A stretch of 33,515 nt of DNA. Source: a virus. Below the pieces are notes generated by a model. That model was not told the DNA's origin, searched no databases, and saw nothing but the letters and a program-made list of their open reading frames with translations. Position 1 is the stretch's first letter. Each line of letters opens with the position of its first letter. The translations under genes were made by a program, and so were the position numbers. The stretch lies in IMG/VR virus record IMGVR_UViG_3300020061_000018, positions 1-33,515 of that record; one strand, written 5' to 3'. Below are positions 6,324-33,515 of this stretch, in pieces.

Positions 6324-7512
6324 GGCCGAAACCAAGGTTGCTGATCACCAGCTTGCCGCCGATCTCTCGCGTCGAGCCGGGGTATTTGCTCTCCACGTCC
6401 TGCGCCATCGGGCCCACAACCTTGGGGTACGATTTGGGGTCGTCTTTGTAGCGATAGCTCCACATCTCAAGCCCGGTTTCCGGATCGAGCCCCAGCTTCT
6501 TCTTGTCTGTTTTCATGCGTTCGTCGGAGAGGAACGCAAGAGGTGCGGCTTTGGTGAACAAGCCACCAATTTGGCCCGCAAGCCCGATGCCGGCGCTGGC
6601 TGCACCCAAGCCGGACAGAAGGCCGTTGCTGCTTGTCGGCTGCGTCGAGGTCCCGGTGGTATTCGTCGTCTGGCCATAGGGTGTCTGGCCAAGAGCGCTC
6701 TGCAGGATGCCGAGCTGCTGGATGGGGAACTGTTGCTGTTCCTGATAGGCCTGCTGCTGAGCAAGCAACTGAGCCTGCTGCTGCGCCTGGATTGTGTCCT
6801 GTCCCGCCGAGGCCGCGCCAATGCCGGTGAGAAACGACTGCTGCCCCTGCCCCGCCAAGGTGCCGAGCGCGTTCGCGGCGTTCAATTGGGTGCTGGCCCC
6901 CGACAGGCCGGCCTGCTGGTTGTTCTGCTGCGCCGTCAGATTGCGGTTGATGTCGCCCGTCGCCGCCGCCTGTGCCTGCGTAAAGTTCGCGGCCTGCAAC
7001 TGGGATGCGAGATTGCCGGCTGCCGTCGCGGCACCCGCATTCGTCACACCCTCGGCAATGCCCTGCCGCGAGCCGCCGAAGGCCTTGGAAGAGATCGCCT
7101 GATCGCCCACCTGATTGAGCGACTGCTGCCGCTGAACATCCAGCGCCGAGAGCCCATTGTTGATCACGCTCTGTGTGTACGGGTTCATGTAGGCGGAGAG
7201 ATCGGTGTTCGAGAGCTGACCCGCATTCACCTGTGAAGGCTGATATCCGGTCAGCCCCGCAGCGGTGTCCTGCGCCAGGCTATAGGCTGGATTCGTGGAA
7301 CCGACGTTGCTCTGCAGGGCGGCGACGTTCGCCAACTGTCCGGATGTCTGATCGGCAACCCGCTGGCCCGTGTAAGGCCCCATGAGGTTCTGACTGACGC
7401 CCTGCGCGATGCCATAGTTATTCTGGCCGGTCGATTCGACCCAAGCCGGGAGCGAGGTCGTGCTGGTTTGCTGCTGGGTTGAAGTCGAGCCGCCGCCACT
7501 GGATTTACCCAT
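6316..7512 (-). CDS. Virion protein with C-terminal S74 intramolecular chaperone domain
   Basis: 398 residues. Residues 1-300 are Gln/Ala/Ser/Thr-rich, helical and without cysteines. From residue ~326 comes LAFLSDERMKTDKKKLG, followed by a W-S-Y-x-Y-K segment, the signature of the peptidase S74 / intramolecular chaperone auto-processing domain, in which a Ser (here S329) and a Lys (K334) drive self-cleavage after trimeric assembly. The remainder (GPMAQDVESKYPG) fits the short phage version of this domain. The family is common at the end of fibre proteins; here the body looks like an ejection or internal protein instead. It overlaps both neighbours by 8 bp. Confidence 0.75.
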   Translation of the reverse strand: MGKSSGGGSTSTQQQTSTTSLPAWVESTGQNNYGIAQGVSQNLMGPYTGQRVADQTSGQLANVAALQSNVGSTNPAYSLAQDTAAGLTGYQPSQVNAGQLSNTDLSAYMNPYTQSVINNGLSALDVQRQQSLNQVGDQAISSKAFGGSRQGIAEGVTNAGAATAAGNLASQLQAANFTQAQAAATGDINRNLTAQQNNQQAGLSGASTQLNAANALGTLAGQGQQSFLTGIGAASAGQDTIQAQQQAQLLAQQQAYQEQQQFPIQQLGILQSALGQTPYGQTTNTTGTSTQPTSSNGLLSGLGAASAGIGLAGQIGGLFTKAAPLAFLSDERMKTDKKKLGLDPETGLEMWSYRYKDDPKSYPKVVGPMAQDVESKYPGSTREIGGKLVISNLGFGHG

Positions 7513-7864
7513 GGGTCAATTCCTTGGTAAAAACCATGTCGGTCTTCTTCCATCCGTACTTCGGAAGGATCGCTTCCCAGCCGAAACGACCGATCGTCGT
7601 CATGAAGTCGCAGCCATGGTCGAGGGCGTGCTGCTCCACCCGCGAGGAGAGATCCATCACTCCGGGAAGCTCGCCTGCCGTGACCCAGCAATGCAGGTGC
7701 TTCTTGCGCGGGCTCTTGAGGATTTCCGTGAGGCAGACGCCGTGGTCGTTGTCGAAAAGCTGGAATGCCCCCGTACGCAGACCCGGCAGGAAATCCTCCC
7801 ATTCATGGGTACCGCCCCGCTCCAGCGACTTGCGAATGAGCGCAATCTTCTGTTCGGGCGTCAT
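7505..7864 (-). CDS. GNAT-like phage protein
   Basis: 119 residues from ATG 7864, which overlaps the upstream stop by ATGA. The arrangement FQLFDNDHGVCLTEI, then a basic strand ending HLHCWVTAGELPG, a helix SSRVEQHALDHGC and finally TTIGRFGWEAILPKYGWKK resembles the small acetyltransferase-like (GNAT-fold) proteins encoded in podophage tail clusters; the final R-x-G-W...GW is the typical last helix-strand of the fold. A clear acetyl-CoA loop (QxxGxG/A) is not seen, so catalysis is doubtful. Role in the virion is unknown. Confidence 0.6.
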   Translation of the reverse strand: MTPEQKIALIRKSLERGGTHEWEDFLPGLRTGAFQLFDNDHGVCLTEILKSPRKKHLHCWVTAGELPGVMDLSSRVEQHALDHGCDFMTTIGRFGWEAILPKYGWKKTDMVFTKELTHG

Positions 7865-8079
7865 ACCCGGTCCTTCCCGTCCACAAGCGTGGTCGTCATC
7901 ACGCCGGCATTGGAGATCGTGAGCGCGTAGATGGTAGGGGCCGTGGTCGCCGTTCCCGGTGATTGAAGGAGAATGCGCGGCGTCGCCTCGTTCGAAGCCA
8001 CCGCGGCACTCAAGGCCCGTTGAACGGCCGACGCGAAAACCTGCATCTGCGAAATCACCGGAGGAAGCTTCACGTTCAT
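7861..8079 (-). CDS. Small protein in tail cluster, unknown function
   Basis: 72 residues (MNVKLPPVISQMQVFASAVQ start). The ATG at 8079 overlaps the stop of the tail nozzle-like gene by ATGA, which decides against a longer upstream in-frame start. It has an amphipathic helix (residues 8-30), then a Thr/Ala-rich beta-type C-terminus (TATTAPTIYALTISNAGVM). It sits between the tail protein and the GNAT-like gene with overlaps at both ends, so it is clearly part of the structural operon. No family recognised. Confidence 0.65.
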   Translation of the reverse strand: MNVKLPPVISQMQVFASAVQRALSAAVASNEATPRILLQSPGTATTAPTIYALTISNAGVMTTTLVDGKDRV

Positions 8080-24657: not shown

Positions 24658-25305
24658 TTATTCGGCGGCCTGCGATTGCTGCCCCATCTTTCGGATGCTG
24701 CCCTTGCGCTTGGGCCGCTCGCCTGATCTCACCGCGGCGCGGCACTCGGCCATCTGCGTTTCCCAAACTTCCCTGTCCGCCGGCGGTGGGCCGAATCGCA
24801 GCGAGCGCTCGGAACTGACAGCGCGGTCCTCGCACAGCTTGATTTGCTCGGCAGTCAGCAAGATATCGCTGGCACGTCCGCTCCAGCCGCGCTGTGAGGC
24901 AATCTGGTGAACTTCATGACCACAGGCCGCCGCGACCATCCACCCCCTCGCCTGCTCGATCTTCAGGCCTTGGCGCTGCGTCCACGCCTCGACCATCTCC
25001 GGGATAACCTTCGCTCGGGCGTCCATACGGCTGCGAATCGGCGGGCCCCAGCGGTCGAGGCTGTCGTCGGGCTTCGCATGCAGGGAACTGCTCGGCAGTT
25101 GCTCCTCGAAATCCTTGGCGATCGGGAACGGCTTGCGGGCGGTCGGGTTGAAGTTGGCCGCCACATGCGTGAACGCGTCTGCCAGATGCGGGCCCTCGAC
25201 CTTGCCGAGCCGCGCCCGATAGACCGAACTCAGCGCTTCCAGTGCAGCGGCCGTGAAGCCCGGATAGATGCTCGCCATGCGCTTGAGAAGCTCGGAGATG
25301 GTCAT
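24658..25305 (-). CDS. Putative helicase loader (replication protein)
   Basis: 215 residues, ATGA overlap with the replication initiator. The first ~75 residues, MTISELLKRMASIYPGFTAAALEALSSVYRARLGKV...HLADAFTHVAANFNPTARKPFPIAKDF, resemble the helical N-terminal domain of phage helicase loaders of the G39P type (YPxF, then a long helix and a late FP-x-x-x-D). The rest is charged and helical. Inference: it loads the host DnaB helicase, since no helicase is in the window. The match is by pattern only. Confidence 0.5.
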   Translation of the reverse strand: MTISELLKRMASIYPGFTAAALEALSSVYRARLGKVEGPHLADAFTHVAANFNPTARKPFPIAKDFEEQLPSSSLHAKPDDSLDRWGPPIRSRMDARAKVIPEMVEAWTQRQGLKIEQARGWMVAAACGHEVHQIASQRGWSGRASDILLTAEQIKLCEDRAVSSERSLRFGPPPADREVWETQMAECRAAVRSGERPKRKGSIRKMGQQSQAAE

Positions 25306-26246
25306 GCCGAGCCCCCTTCGCCGCGTGCAATGATCGCGTCTATCTCAGCCTCGTGCGCCTTCTCCCAACTCGGCTTGCCGCTTCCGTTCGGGCGATTGCT
25401 GCGGAACTCCGCGTCGCGCCGACACCAGCGTTGAAAGCGGGAATTCCAGTCACGAGCCTTCGAATCGGGACCAGCTTTCGCCCAGAAATGTTGCGAAAAA
25501 TCCAACGCTACTACAGCGGGGTCACATCCTTGGGCCCGGGCGTATTCGAGTTGCTCGGCACTCGCCGTCCAATCGGCTGGCAGGCAATGGCCGGCACTCC
25601 CAGCCTTTCGAGTTCGGCCAGGATCTCCTTCAGCCGGTTGGCCTTGATCGTCTCCCAGTGCGGTCTCCACACGTCGATCAGCTTTCGCATTGCTTGTCCT
25701 CTTCAAAAAATCCGGTATGGCTAGGTCAGGGGGTGCGGCGTTCGCGAAAGCGAGCGCGCCTCTCTCCTCAGTAAGATTCTCTCTAACTTCCTTTCCCTTC
25801 CCTTCCTCTTCCTTTCCCTTCCCCACAGTGTTGGTCGGTGTATGCATATGCATGTCGGTGCACGCACCCGTCTGCGCATCCTCTTGCACCGGCTCTTCAT
25901 TGCCATGCACGGTTGCGTCTTGCTTTTGCACGTGCGGGTCTGGTAATTTCGATGCCGACTCACGTGCATTCACAATCTGGTGCTTGCGAAAGGATGGAAT
26001 GTAGGCAAGTCCTTGACCGTAAATAATAATCACACCTTGCTTGACGAGCTCGCCGGCGACGGCATCGGGATCGACGATGTCGTCCGGCAGGTAAGAGCGC
26101 TTGAAGGTCCGCGGCTTCCACTCCATCCGGCCTTCTCGATCCGCCTCGCACCACAGACCGATGAACAAAAGCCGTGCGAGGGGGCTCAGAGCGCAAACGT
26201 CGTCGCTCGTGAAGAAGCCCGGCTTGATCGTCCTAATTCGTGCCAT
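25302..26246 (-). CDS. Replication initiator-like protein (replisome organiser type)
   Basis: 314 residues from ATG 26246 (MARIRTIKPGFF). The N-terminal ~105 residues, IKPGFFTSDDVCALSPLARLLFIGLWCEADREGRMEWKPRTFKRSYLPDDI...AYIPSFRKHQ, are the phage replication-initiator wHTH domain found upstream of helicase-loader genes. A linker (about 105-220) includes a Lys/Glu-rich stretch and low-complexity part. The C-terminal ~85 residues (LPADWTASAEQLEYARAQG...FSQHFWAKAGPDSKARDWNSRFQRWCRRD) are the usual tail domain. It likely binds the phage origin and recruits host helicase via the next gene. A nested frame (25511-25690) shows stronger coding features than the linker it overlaps. Confidence 0.75.
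   Translation of the reverse strand: MARIRTIKPGFFTSDDVCALSPLARLLFIGLWCEADREGRMEWKPRTFKRSYLPDDIVDPDAVAGELVKQGVIIIYGQGLAYIPSFRKHQIVNARESASKLPDPHVQKQDATVHGNEEPVQEDAQTGACTDMHMHTPTNTVGKGKEEEGKGKEVRENLTEERGALAFANAAPPDLAIPDFLKRTSNAKADRRVETALGDDQGQPAEGDPGRTRKAGSAGHCLPADWTASAEQLEYARAQGCDPAVVALDFSQHFWAKAGPDSKARDWNSRFQRWCRRDAEFRSNRPNGSGKPSWEKAHEAEIDAIIARGEGGSA
25511..25690 (-). CDS. Possible nested small gene inside initiator linker
   Basis: 59 residues in another frame of the initiator gene: MRKLIDVWRPHWETIKANR, then LKEILAELERLGVPAIACQP. ATG 25690 is preceded by an AGAGGAC ribosome-binding site at good spacing and directly by an in-frame stop. Its codons end mostly in G or C, as expected for real genes at this base composition, whereas the overlapping initiator linker here does not. 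Either a true overlapping gene or a trace of a shifted frame. Confidence 0.4.
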   Translation of the reverse strand: MRKLIDVWRPHWETIKANRLKEILAELERLGVPAIACQPIGRRVPSNSNTPGPKDVTPL

Positions 26247-26409
26247 TGTCCCTCGCACACGCTTCCAAGAATTCCTCGAAGGGCAGCACCGTCGTCCTGA
26301 TGCGCAGCGCGGGAAGCAGCGGGTCCTTCAGGCGCTCGTCGCCGTCCTCGAGGAACAAGGATACCCGCCTGTCCTCGCTGTAGAGGAGCCAGCCTGTTTT
26401 CTCGGTCAT
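26233..26409 (-). CDS. Small hypothetical protein before initiator
   Basis: 58 residues from ATG 26409 (TGATG junction). TEKTGWLLYSEDRRVSLFLEDGDERLKDPLLPALRIRTTVLPFEEFLEACARDN: compact, beta then helix. It overlaps the initiator by 14 bp. Function unknown; longer in-frame starts run through the upstream gene and are rejected. Confidence 0.55.
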   Translation of the reverse strand: MTEKTGWLLYSEDRRVSLFLEDGDERLKDPLLPALRIRTTVLPFEEFLEACARDNGTN

Positions 26410-27763: not shown

Positions 27764-27960
27764 GGCCGCGCCCAATCGATAGACGGGGTTTTCTTGGTCT
27801 TCTCGGCGTTGATATCCATGCCGCTGCGGTAGGCGGAAGCTTCGATGCGCAGGCGGCCGATCATCTCGCGCAGGTGAACGGCATTTTTCTGACCGAAGTA
27901 ATCACGTTCGCACTCGAAATCGAGCCAAGCGAGAGCGTGGCCATCAGCGTCGTCGGTCAT
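27760..27960 (-). CDS. Small hypothetical protein
   Basis: 66 residues from ATG 27960, ATGA with upstream stop. TDDADGHALAWLDFECERDYFGQKNAVHLREMIGRLRIEASAYRSGMDINAEKTKKTP: a central helix with charged ends. No family recognised. Confidence 0.55.
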   Translation of the reverse strand: MTDDADGHALAWLDFECERDYFGQKNAVHLREMIGRLRIEASAYRSGMDINAEKTKKTPSIDWARP

Positions 27961-28361
27961 GAGATCCTCCATTCGATTTCCGAGTGCAGTGCCTTGGCGA
28001 GCTTGAATTTGATTTTGAAGTCGCGGGTTTGAAAACCTTTGCGATCCTCGGCAATCAGATGGCCCGGCTCGCCTGTTCCGAGTACAATCCGATAGCTCCA
28101 GTCGGAGATGTATATGCAGATGAGCTGGCCGTTCACGACGAGCGGAAAACGCGGCTGGCGCTTGAGGTCTACGATCTCCCCGCGCTTCTCCATGATGTGC
28201 AGGTCCCAGTCGCGCTTCTGCTCGGCCTTTGAAGCGTGGCGAACACCATCCACAACCTGCGGCTTGTTCCCGTACTTGGAGAGCGGCTTGGCCTTCAGCG
28301 CCGCGATATACTCATCGCTGAGAACCACCGGGATGGGGTTGATGGGGAGCTTGAGCTTCAT
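27957..28361 (-). CDS. DUF1064 / RusA-like nuclease-type protein
   Basis: 134 residues. SKYGNKPQVVDGVRHASKAEQKRDWDLHIMEKRGEIVDLKRQPRFPL, then YISDWSYRIV and EDRKGFQTRDFKIKFKLAKA match the DUF1064 family: SKxE near residues 44-47, D87, and E105-D106 with K108-G109 forming a PD-(D/E)xK-type acidic/Lys centre. Family members are viewed as Holliday-junction or structure-specific endonuclease relatives. ATGA overlap with both neighbours. It may resolve recombination or replication intermediates. Confidence 0.8.
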   Translation of the reverse strand: MKLKLPINPIPVVLSDEYIAALKAKPLSKYGNKPQVVDGVRHASKAEQKRDWDLHIMEKRGEIVDLKRQPRFPLVVNGQLICIYISDWSYRIVLGTGEPGHLIAEDRKGFQTRDFKIKFKLAKALHSEIEWRIS

Positions 28362-30975: not shown

Positions 30976-31004
30976 AATATGCGGAACACTTTCCGCGTCG
31001 TCAA
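30976..31004 (-). promoter_or_regulatory. Leftward early promoter with operator
   Basis: -35 TTGACG (31004-30999), 17-bp spacer, -10 CATATT (30981-30976). A perfect inverted repeat GCGGAA-N4-TTCCGC (30996-30981) fills the spacer, so a bound repressor would block RNA polymerase. Drives the Cro-like gene and the early operon. Confidence 0.7.
30981..30996. promoter_or_regulatory. Operator O1 (perfect)
   Basis: GCGGAACACTTTCCGC, a perfect 6-bp inverted repeat with a 4-bp centre, lying in the leftward promoter spacer. Confidence 0.75.
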
Positions 31005-31013
31005 GAGCCAAAA

Positions 31014-31029
31014 GCGGAAAAGGTGCCGT
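31014..31029. promoter_or_regulatory. Operator O2 (degenerate)
   Basis: GCGGAA followed by AAGGTGCCGT: left half identical to O1, right half 4 of 6. Centre-to-centre distance from O1 is 33 bp. It lies close to the proposed -35 of the repressor promoter. Confidence 0.5.
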
Positions 31030-31058
31030 TCGGATTAAAATCCTGCGTCGGGCATAAT
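31029..31058 (+). promoter_or_regulatory. Weak repressor-maintenance promoter
   Basis: -10 CATAAT at 31053-31058 lies 6 bp before the ATG at 31065, with a poor -35 (TTCGGA, 31029-31034). The spacing predicts a leaderless repressor mRNA. A weak -35 fits a promoter that needs activation, as with lambda PRM; that role is inferred. Confidence 0.5.
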
Positions 31059-31064
31059 GGTGCG

Positions 31065-31787
31065 ATGCAAATAACCGCCAATCACCGCCGCACTGCCTTG
31101 CGCGCGTTCATGGACCGCGAGGGGCTGAAGACGCGGACCTGGGAAGAGGCTGCCGGAATGAACGGCACCCTGCGCAAGTTCTTGGAGGGCAAGTCCAAGA
31201 CGATGAACGATGCGACCTACATCCGCCTGGCAGAGGCTGCATTCAAGTTTTGCGGCCGCCCTGTGACAACGACGGAGCTACAAGTGAGTCAAAAACCTGT
31301 AGAATTGCGGCTTACCTACGAAGGAGATCGCGATTCAGACGTGCGACAACTTGACCACCACCCGCAAGTGTCACATTCTGGGGAAAAGGAGAACACTCTG
31401 AAGGTGTTCGAATCGTCCCCCGGGGGCGATGCCGGGGGGTTTCTGATGGAACGCGTATCTGTTCACAGGGTCGGCAAACCAACACGGATTGCCGAGCGAG
31501 ACGACGTTTTTGCTTTCCATGTCGTGACCAATGATATGGCCGAGAAGTTCAGGCCCGGCGACATGGTTATTGTCGAGCAGCACCGGGCGCCCCGCGAAAC
31601 CGACTATGTATTGGTCGAGATGAAATCCGAGCCCCCTGCCCTGCGTCCGATGCTCCTCAAGAAGCTGATCACCGCCGGCGCCGACAAAATCACGCTCGCC
31701 CAGCTCAAGCCGCCCAAGGAATTCGACGTGGACCGGAAGAAGATCGAACGGATCTACCGGGTCATGGAAATCGTCGATCTGGTCTAA
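31065..31787 (+). CDS. CI-like repressor, S24 fold with Asp in place of nucleophile Ser
   Basis: 240 residues. The N-terminal ~65 residues (RTALRAFMDREGLKTRTWEEAAGMNGTLRKFLEG) form an HTH. The C-terminal half has the LexA/CI peptidase arrangement: Ala-Gly cleavage site at A123-G124, then FHVVTNDMAEKFRPGDMVIVEQ and a Lys pair K199-K200 in LLKKLI. The usual SM of VxGdSM is replaced by DM (D157), so the serine needed for self-cleavage is absent, while the cleavage site and Lys remain at the right spacing. It is rightward, flanked by operators, and has no Shine-Dalgarno; an upstream in-frame ATG at 31023 adds 14 residues but has no better support. Confidence 0.8.
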   Translation: MQITANHRRTALRAFMDREGLKTRTWEEAAGMNGTLRKFLEGKSKTMNDATYIRLAEAAFKFCGRPVTTTELQVSQKPVELRLTYEGDRDSDVRQLDHHPQVSHSGEKENTLKVFESSPGGDAGGFLMERVSVHRVGKPTRIAERDDVFAFHVVTNDMAEKFRPGDMVIVEQHRAPRETDYVLVEMKSEPPALRPMLLKKLITAGADKITLAQLKPPKEFDVDRKKIERIYRVMEIVDLV

Positions 31788-31924
31788 ACCTATATTCTAA
31801 AAGAGTAATTCGCGGATAATTCGCCGCTCCGCACCTGTGCAAGAAATCTGGAATACTTTCCGCATTAGCTATTGACGATTGCGGAATACAATCCCATACT
31901 CCCCTCACTAACCAAGGGGACAAC
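31788..31924 (+). promoter_or_regulatory. Rightward promoter region with operator pair
   Basis: -35 TTGACG (31872-31877), 17-bp spacer, -10 CATACT (31895-31900). Operator O3 CTGGAATACTTTCCGC (31848-31863) is upstream, O4 GCGGAATACAATCCCA (31881-31896) fills the spacer; their centres are 33 bp apart. A short repeat TAATTCGC occurs twice near 31806-31823. It drives the lipoprotein-to-Rad52 chain. Confidence 0.65.
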
Positions 31925-32344
31925 ATGCACAAGCCGCTCGCCATTCTCTCACTCCTCGCGCTCGGGGCCTGCGCCGGCCGCGCTCCGGCTCCGGTCTCGG
32001 TCGTCCAGGCACAGGACCGCTACTCGGACTGCGCTGCCATCCAGATCGAATCCGAGGCCAACGCCAAGAAGATATCGGCCCTTGGTGGCGAGGAAGGCGG
32101 CAAGACGGCTCAGAACGTCGCCGCTGGTGTCGCCGGGCTGTTCTTCTTCCCGCTCTGGTTCGCCATGGATTTTCAGGGTGCCGCCTCGAAGGAGGGAGCC
32201 GCCCTGCAGAGCCGCCAGCAGTACCTCGCGGTGATGTCCGAGCAGAAGCGCTGCGCCGGGGCAAGTTCCACCACTTGGCAGGTTCAGGGCGCGGGCGTTG
32301 AGCAGCCCGTTGTCGGACGCGACGACTACAAGGCGGTGAAGTGA
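31925..32344 (+). CDS. Lipoprotein
   Basis: 139 residues; AAGGGGA precedes the ATG. The signal MHKPLAILSLLALGACAG has a lipobox LGAC, with lipid attachment at Cys17. The mature part has helices (YSDCAAIQIESEANAKKISALGGEEG), a hydrophobic stretch GLFFFPLWFAMDF and then EGAALQSRQQYLAVMSEQKRC. This looks like alphaproteobacterial chromosomal lipoproteins, so it may be an acquired gene. As first gene of the rightward promoter it could be expressed early; cell-envelope modification or exclusion is inferred. Confidence 0.75.
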   Translation: MHKPLAILSLLALGACAGRAPAPVSVVQAQDRYSDCAAIQIESEANAKKISALGGEEGGKTAQNVAAGVAGLFFFPLWFAMDFQGAASKEGAALQSRQQYLAVMSEQKRCAGASSTTWQVQGAGVEQPVVGRDDYKAVK

Positions 32345-32628
32345 TGGACAGTATGATGGCCGAGTACGCCCGCGACGACGCAGAGAATGCGTTGGACGCG
32401 CTGGAGGCTTCCAAGGCTCGCTGTATGTTGGAAATCCAAGCCGCCGTCGATGGCCTCGCCTCCTTCTGCGGTGCCTCACAGAGCGTCCGTAGGGCCTGTC
32501 TGGATGCCATTGCTGACGAGCTGGGCGATCTCACGTGGGATCGCCGCGAGGAGCTGAAGGAGCTGATCTCCGATCTCTCGGACCAGATTTCACGGGCTGA
32601 CGCGCCCTACTCCACACGGGCCGCATGA
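32344..32628 (+). CDS. Small acidic helical protein
   Basis: 94 residues from ATG 32344 in a TGATG junction. DSMMAEYARDDAENALDALEASKARCMLEIQAAVDGLASFC, then CLDAIADELGDLTWDRREELKELISDLSDQIS: nearly all helix, acidic. No known motif. Confidence 0.6.
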   Translation: MDSMMAEYARDDAENALDALEASKARCMLEIQAAVDGLASFCGASQSVRRACLDAIADELGDLTWDRREELKELISDLSDQISRADAPYSTRAA

Positions 32629-32945
32629 TGGCGAAGGCAATAGCTCGCGCGCTTGATGCCGCGCGCCCAGCTCGTCCCGCATCAACGCCGGGACCTTGGG
32701 TTGCTATCCAGGGTCTTGCGGATAACGAATGGACGCTCTCCCGTTATGAAGATTCCCAATATATCGGACGCTTCACTGCGAGCAGTCGCACGCTCAAGGA
32801 CGGCAGGCACGACGCCAGTCTAATCGCCGCAGCGCCAGACATGCTGGCTGCCTTGAAAGCCATACAGTCGGAAACTGATCCGCCAATTGGTACGCCGCAT
32901 CACGCTGTTAATGCAGCCATCGCCAAAGCCGAGGGCCGGTCATGA
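32625..32945 (+). CDS. Early protein with LIAAAPDML motif
   Basis: 106 residues from ATG 32625 (ATGA overlap). A basic start (AKAIARALDAARPARPAS), PGPWVAIQGLADNEWTLSRYEDSQYIGRF, then GRHDASLIAAAPDMLAALKAIQSE and AVNAAIAKAEGRS. The D-A-x-LIAAAPD-x-L-x-ALK signature occurs in many uncharacterised phage early proteins; no activity is known to me. Confidence 0.65.
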   Translation: MMAKAIARALDAARPARPASTPGPWVAIQGLADNEWTLSRYEDSQYIGRFTASSRTLKDGRHDASLIAAAPDMLAALKAIQSETDPPIGTPHHAVNAAIAKAEGRS

Positions 32946-33159: not shown

Positions 33160-33310
33160 CCATGTAGTCCTCGACGCGGTGCGCATGACGCCTGCGGAAA
33201 AAGCTTGGTCCATCAAATGGATGGCCGACAAGGGCGAGCCGCTGTGGCGCATCAGCGAGGCCGCAAGATTGCTCGCCATGCAGTTGGATGAGGAGAAGGC
33301 TCGTGATTGA
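33152..33310 (+). CDS. Small hypothetical protein before Rad52
   Basis: 52 residues from ATG 33152, with GAGGAG at good spacing. PDHVVLDAVRMTPAEKAWSIKWMADKGEPLWRISEAARLLAMQLDEEKARD: helical with an HTH-like WRISEAARLLAM segment. It overlaps the Rad52-like gene by 8 bp. Unknown role. Confidence 0.5.
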   Translation: MPDHVVLDAVRMTPAEKAWSIKWMADKGEPLWRISEAARLLAMQLDEEKARD

Positions 33311-33515
33311 TTTCAAAGCCTTGGCCGCGCCGTTCGAGCCGTCTGAAATAAGCTGGCGCGTCGGCTCCGTCACCAAGGACAAGCTGAAGGGCATGGCGCT
33401 CGCCTACCTCGACGCCCGCGCCGTGGCTGATCGGCTCGACGCTGTGTGCGGCCCGGATGGTTGGCAGTGCCGCTATAGTCACGCCGCGCAGAAAACCGTG
33501 TGCGATATCGGCATC
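33303..33515 (+). CDS. Rad52-like single-strand annealing protein (N-terminal part)
   Basis: Open to the window edge: 71 codons from GTG 33303, behind AGGAGAAGG. IDFKALAAPFEPSEISWRVGSV, then LKGMALAYLDARAVADRLDAVCGPDGWQCRYSHA matches the conserved start of the Rad52/Rad22 family (YLDARAVxDRLDxVCGPxxWQ). Such phage annealing proteins pair single DNA strands in recombination. The catalytic-like ring core lies beyond the edge. Confidence 0.8.
   Translation, partial: MIDFKALAAPFEPSEISWRVGSVTKDKLKGMALAYLDARAVADRLDAVCGPDGWQCRYSHAAQKTVCDIGI

Follow-up and report, generated by a model that had tools for sequence, protein, structure and literature searches.

Gene content of the control region

The stretch of DNA that we analyzed (the window, 33,515 bases) is the entire IMG/VR record IMGVR_UViG_3300020061_000018, which is classed as linear. 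Its minus strand carries terminase, portal, scaffold and SU10-type capsid genes, the relatives of the portal being found in the Manatee Spring phages and Sinorhizobium phage phiM5, together with a 57% match in one Reyranellaceae genome. A divergent pair of regulatory genes encodes the repressor P0001 and the small Cro-like protein P0002 (Table 1), and the genes on either side of this pair are transcribed outward, with replication and resolvase-like genes to the left and an Erf/Rad52-like gene to the right. By gene content, the left side (Cro-like, replication) corresponds to lambda OR and the right side (recombination) to OL. The lipoprotein-like product of P0003 (phrog_13472, function unknown) is unusual for the first early gene of a rightward lytic operon. 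No integrase was recognized among the window genes scanned and the contig may be incomplete, so that the case for a temperate lifestyle is drawn from the switch itself. Rfam and tRNA scans of the window gave no matches.

Table 1. Features of the control region and flanking early genes, with positions in the window
Feature	Position	Strand	Remarks
Replication initiation protein	25302-26258	-	Leftward (Cro-like) side of control region
DUF1064/Holliday junction resolvase-like protein	27957-28361	-	Leftward side
P0002, Cro-like small HTH protein, 79 aa	30730-30969	-	Divergent from repressor; predicted leaderless
Leftward lytic promoter, TTGACG-N17-CATATT	30976-31004	-	-35 at 31004-30999, -10 at 30981-30976
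O1	30982-30995		CGGAACACTTTCCG, perfect; spacer of leftward promoter; start -83 from repressor ATG
O2	31015-31028		CGGAAAAGGTGCCG, 1 mismatch; 33 bp from O1; start -50 from repressor ATG
Third left operator	31031-31044		CGGATTAAAATCCT, 1 mismatch; 16 bp from O2; start -34 from repressor ATG
Probable repressor promoter -10, CATAAT	31053-31058	+	6 nt before repressor ATG
Repressor P0001, 240 aa	31065-31787	+	N-terminal lambda/434-type HTH; C-terminal CI/LexA-like domain
Candidate extra right-hand operator	31813-31826		CGGATAATTCGCCG, 1 mismatch; position not conserved in relatives
O3	31849-31862		TGGAATACTTTCCG, 1 mismatch; upstream of rightward promoter
Rightward lytic promoter, TTGACG-N17-CATACT	31872-31900	+	
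O4	31882-31895		CGGAATACAATCCC, 1 mismatch; spacer of rightward promoter; 33 bp from O3
P0003, small lipoprotein-like; gene 1 of rightward operon	31925-32344	+	phrog_13472
Erf/Rad52-like single-strand annealing protein	33288-33515	+	Recombination side; contig end truncates gene

Operators and promoters in the window

The first-pass annotation had described two pairs of operators, O1/O2 and O3/O4, on the two sides of the repressor gene. All four are present (at 30981-30996, 31014-31029, 31848-31863 and 31881-31896), and the centre-to-centre spacing of 33 bp is found in both pairs. The consensus proposed for them, GCGGAA-N4-TTCCGC, did not stand: it is exact in O1 only, O1 to O4 having 0, 2, 2 and 3 mismatches of 12, and we dropped it as a motif because matches with up to three mismatches are not enriched in the window (22, against 28.6 expected from shuffles). 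The motif common to the relatives of the locus is CGGA-N6-TCCG, from which each of O1-O4 departs at no more than one of eight positions. With this form, one more site is recognized in each of the two intergenic stretches, at 31031-31044 and at 31813-31826, the first of which overlies the -35/spacer region of the repressor promoter and is conserved in relatives. The intergenic stretches (95 and 137 bp) hold three sites each, against expectations of 0.067 and 0.059; that is, six sites per 232 intergenic bases where about 0.13 would be expected, and two or more sites on both sides arose in none of 20,000 dinucleotide shuffles. A further perfect CGGA-N6-TCCG (32869-32882, CGGAAACTGATCCG) falls within a gene, the open reading frame 32625-32945, and is probably a chance occurrence.

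Both TTGACG-N17-CATAYT promoters were confirmed, and are the only promoter-like sites that the scanner returned between 30400 and 32700, where 0.7 would be expected. As had been proposed, each contains one operator in its spacer and has a second upstream of the -35, by 9 bp on the left and 8 bp on the right. The four sites, the 33-bp spacings and the two promoters are genuine features that far exceed chance expectation. A good -35 is lacking from the repressor promoter; the spacing between its CATAAT and the ATG recurs in L002-L004 and others. Since the P0002 start codon lies 6 nt past the -10 of the leftward promoter and the repressor start lies equally far beyond its own -10, both messages are predicted to be leaderless.

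Properties of the repressor

The repressor gene, given earlier as 0.9 kb, measures 723 bp. P0001 matches Peptidase_S24 (PF00717) barely above the cut-off (23.5 against 23.3 bits) and has a weak match to a repressor PHROG. AlphaFold2 predicts the N-terminal HTH with confidence and the C-terminal domain with low confidence (mean pLDDT 60), and a fold search returned HTH structures of the 434/P22/lambda type together with the C-domains of lambda CI and LexA (for 1f39, Z 8.4 over 87 residues, rmsd 2.9); the matches include the octamer entry 1kca, of the lambda CI C-domain type. Profile and fold together place P0001 in the S24/CI C-terminal domain superfamily, and in the predicted structure the helix at residues 35-40 (TLRKFL) is likely to be the recognition helix. 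A PDB sequence search with P0001 returned nothing useful, and IMG/VR searches with P0001 and with the repressor alignment revealed no close viral relatives.

In the alignment, Asp157 stands where the C repressor of Rhizobium phage 16-3 and the Reyranella homologues have the catalytic Ser, Lys199 being retained; P0001 thus lacks, as judged by alignment, the Ser and Lys combination of the self-cleaving (SOS-inducible) S24 repressors. The sequence around residue 157 is VVTNDM, against VVGDSM in relatives, and the linker still has an Ala-Gly (123-124). Self-cleavage of P0001 is unlikely on this reading of the sequence, and because the catalytic Ser is replaced by Asp, induction through RecA-stimulated self-cleavage is unlikely too, so that another trigger would be expected.

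Homologous switches in Reyranellaceae

Homologues of P0001 with 37-39% identity occur in ten Reyranellaceae loci (L002-L004 and L008-L014). Measured from the repressor start, the -34 site is present in 11 of 11 loci (the window and the ten from Reyranellaceae) and the -50 site is in register in all ten homologues, with 0-2 mismatches, whereas the outermost left site lies at -79/-80 as against -83 in the window. Right-hand operators are in view in nine of the ten loci, mostly as pairs 32-33 bp apart whose distance from the repressor varies and whose proximal site falls in the spacer that separates the -35 of the next promoter from its ATACT; in L002 one right-hand site only is clear, and the sequence of L012 ends too early for its right-hand pair to be judged. 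Three of the ten also have, transcribed away from the repressor, a Cro-like homologue with 50-52% identity. The Reyranellaceae locus therefore has in common with the window a homologous repressor, the CGGA-N6-TCCG operator, the operator positions and, in three genomes, the Cro-like gene; it differs in its right-hand gene, in the presence of the catalytic Ser and in a left spacing of 29-30 bp.

The flanking genes of this locus are common to several species, which points to a chromosomal and probably domesticated location; phage structural genes were not noticed there. It is possible that the Reyranellaceae switch is a domesticated immunity locus. The syntenic chromosomal copies with the same operator as the phage comprise L069-L073 in addition to the ten loci above. 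An Sf6-like small terminase gene is found near the switch, as is, in L002, a RhuM gene.

The same geometry with other half-sites

Further divergent pairs were found by searches with alignments of the Cro-like and repressor HTH regions. They were scored with a geometry test for three h-N6-rc(h) sites, in which the half-site is free, the spacings are 28-36 and 15-17 bp and the maximum is 24. Stretches of 101 bp from ordinary sequence reach 21/24 in about 0.6% of cases. The left stretch of the window scores 22/24, and is the sole part of the contig to exceed 20/24. Scores in a first round were 23 for L004, 21 for L075 (CGTC), 24 for L076 (CGCA), 23 for L079 (CGCA), 21 for L092 (TGCG) and 21 for L093 (CGCG/CGTG), each matched by 0 or 1 of 1,000 shuffles (0 for the window); a second round gave 22 for L169 (CGCG), 23 for L174 (CACA), 23 for L180 (TGCG) and 20 for L181 (TGCA), with 0 or 1 of 300 shuffles. 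L173 (CGCG, 21) passes but is doubtful, its best palindrome (CGCGATATATCGCG) being separated from the next site by 42 bp instead of 33 bp, and we set it aside.

At least nine other homologous divergent pairs, from bacterial or prophage switches, thus have the 30-35/16 bp geometry, with the half-sites CGCA, CGTC, CACA, CGCG, TGCG and TGCA, a recurrence that gives the layout the look of a design open to reuse. Relative to the repressor ATG, the third site starts at -33 to -35, and 13-16 nt separate the first site from the Cro-like ATG; for L079, L093 and L174 these positions assume a downstream in-frame ATG. Right-hand pairs of the locus's own operator were seen in L075 (30 bp apart), L076 (29 bp) and L079 (34 bp), those of L076 and L079 being 1.3-1.6 kb away. 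Our definition of the three-operator divergent Cro-like/repressor switch requires three operators of 14 bp with spacings of 29-35 bp and then about 16 bp, the last of them at -33 to -35 relative to the repressor start codon; the window, with sites at -83, -50 and -34, belongs to it.

L105 (18/24), L170 and L182 fail the geometry test, in which the array is likewise absent from a Cro-like subfamily (L171, L172, L175-L179 and L183). The members of this subfamily are conserved chromosomal divergent pairs (MHIDASIHRICAFA...) whose gap is longer, at about 132 bp. A phylum-wide sample searched with the repressor HTH yielded G001 only, and a search of the family of G350 yielded only G350 itself. The operator-in-spacer pattern was found in 60 IMG/VR contigs, in none of which did HMM searches find a homologue of the repressor or of the Cro-like gene.

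In one IMG/VR contig (L153, IMGVR_UViG_3300044788_000021, reverse-complement 6964-7980), three CGGA-N6-TCCG sites lie on one side of an unrelated HTH gene, and about 0.95 kb from them a TTGACG promoter contains two sites spaced by 32 bp. This may be a convergent or an exchanged switch.

Operator and recognition helices

The window and Reyranella have in common CGGA-N6-TCCG, the repressor helix GTLRKFL and the Cro-like helix EKTLRL. L075, with its CGTC operator, has ESSVRHFL in the repressor and ESVTRDL in the Cro-like protein. L076 and L079 have CGCA-N6-TGCG in common, and their Cro-like helices are DTTLRGF and DTTLRDF. Despite this identical operator, their repressor helices differ (ESTLRNFL in L076, AGALYNFL in L079), so the operator corresponds better with the Cro-like protein than with the repressor. 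Within these small numbers, a change of operator tends to be accompanied by changes in the recognition helices, a covariation which suggests that the repressor and the Cro-like protein probably share operators.

These comparisons bear on whether the palindromes belong to the adjacent repressor at all. They might be sites for a host factor, or repeats embedded in promoters; such a reading could draw on the array of L153 beside its unrelated HTH gene and on the frequency of one-mismatch CGGA-N6-TCCG elsewhere in the contig, which is at chance level. Against it, even in distant homologues the sites remain in register with the start of the repressor, and a different HTH is accompanied by a different operator at retained positions, whereas a host-factor site would not vary with the neighboring gene. 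We consider this explanation very improbable, and treat the sites as operators of the repressor.

A second question is whether P0002 is a Cro analogue. The protein has an HTH fold, and a homologue 52% identical occupies the same divergent place in L004. Its matches to a repressor PHROG and to other families are weak, and direct BLAST of P0002 against P0001 gave no significant similarity in the HTH region, so that we claim no kinship between them; an IMG/VR search with P0002 found no close viral relatives, and phage-record searches with P0002 and with P0003 gave no matches. The weak family matches and the BLAST result would be in keeping with a protein of the excision or antirepressor type that does not use the repressor's operators. 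The HTH fold and the closer tracking of the operator by the Cro-like helix in L076 and L079 argue otherwise, and make such a role unlikely for P0002, which we regard as Cro-like in what follows.

Discussion

Our findings indicate that this is very probably the region from which a temperate phage controls its immunity (lysis or lysogeny), with an arrangement of the OL/OR kind. We propose that repressor dimers would bind the CGGA-N6-TCCG operators, one dimer at each lytic promoter occupying the spacer between -35 and -10 (centred at about -19 relative to the predicted start) and another lying 33 bp, or roughly three turns, upstream (centre about -52). In a lysogen, the repressor would in this way keep the Cro-like/replication side silent, and the recombination side with it. 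The centre of O2 is at about -43 from the leaderless repressor start, near the position from which lambda OR2 activates PRM, and a comparable activation may be envisaged. At the third operator (-34 to -21), either the repressor or the Cro-like protein could shut the repressor promoter, as happens at lambda OR3. We assume that the Cro-like protein binds the same sites and so favors lysis. For cooperativity, looping and the preference of Cro we rely on the anatomy of the region and on lambda precedent.

Operators spaced by 33 bp are nearly in helical phase, and those spaced by 16 bp lie on nearly opposite faces, which would favor cooperation between O1 and O2. It may be, of course, that the operators are real and the spacing functionless, each promoter simply having two independent sites with no dependence on helical phase. 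The range among the systems, 29-35 bp for the first left spacing and 29-34 bp for the right, is compatible with this. Nevertheless, the spacings depart little from three helical turns, almost all systems have a second left spacing of 16 bp, and we think it rather doubtful that spacing plays no part.

It is tempting to speculate that the OL- and OR-like regions are brought together as in lambda, by looping of the DNA over about 0.87 kb, across the repressor gene. The window, the Reyranellaceae loci and L075 all have operator sets on both sides of the repressor, and the C-domain of P0001 resembles that of lambda CI, the octamer entry included. However, the distance to the right pair is not fixed, reaching 1.3-1.6 kb in L076 and L079 and varying among the Reyranellaceae loci, and we consider a loop quite conceivable while leaning slightly against it.

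In the searchable literature, the coverage of which is partial, we found no description of this array. On balance we favor, with some reserve, the view that it represents an undescribed and widespread alphaproteobacterial design, in which a Cro-like gene and a repressor gene diverge and have three operators of 14 bp at fixed places, with spacings of about 33 and 16 bp and the last at -34 from the repressor start. A right-hand pair about 32 bp apart would often accompany them, and the two proteins would change their specificity together. As part of this view, the chromosomal Reyranella repressor, since it shares operator and recognition helix with the phage, might confer immunity against such phages, and the operator common to phage and chromosome renders this cross-immunity hypothesis directly testable. 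One architecture with some seven half-sites and parallel changes in the helices offers a natural series for testing both the recognition code and the role of spacing, and touches the long-standing question of how immunity specificities diverge while the switch stays functional. A 2025 study of Sinorhizobium meliloti prophages found no lambda- or 16-3-type operators in phiLM21-like prophages (PMC12429752); a geometry search with a free half-site may help there.

Comparison with known systems

The resemblance to an OL/OR pair put forward in the first-pass annotation holds in its main lines, but was incomplete in having missed the third left operator. Operators overlap lytic promoters on both sides of the repressor; the gene divergent from the repressor is Cro-like (a predicted DNA-binding protein by its HTH fold and conserved position); and early replication and recombination genes lie on opposite, outward-transcribed sides. 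The position of the third operator over the repressor promoter would make repressor autoregulation part of the device.

The layout is that of Rhizobium phage 16-3, whose operators we took from the annotation of record DQ500118: OR1/OR2, PR, Pc, c, OL1/OL2 and PL have the same order and orientation. The C-domain of 16-3 C is homologous to that of P0001 (23% identity, E 2e-6), and -35 boxes of the TTGAC type are common to both. Unlike P0001, however, 16-3 C has the catalytic Ser, and 16-3 further differs in its ACAA/TTGT-type operator, its other HTH and its annotated operator pairs, which are 26 and 17 bp apart; used as a control, it gave no significant 33/16 triplet in the geometry test. The 16-3 C specificity group, united by the same operator and recognition helix, does not include the window.

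With lambda OL/OR, the window has in common a repressor set between multi-operator regions, a divergent Cro-like gene, opposing replication and recombination sides and a CI-like C-domain fold. The lambda operators are about 23-25 bp apart, three per side. The window differs from lambda in operator sequence, in having one conserved third-operator position and in a repressor that is predicted to be non-cleavable. Taken together, these comparisons identify the window, at the level of sequence, as an OL/OR-type switch outside the 16-3 specificity group. The kind of device is already known; what appears to be new is its three-plus-two array with interchangeable operators.
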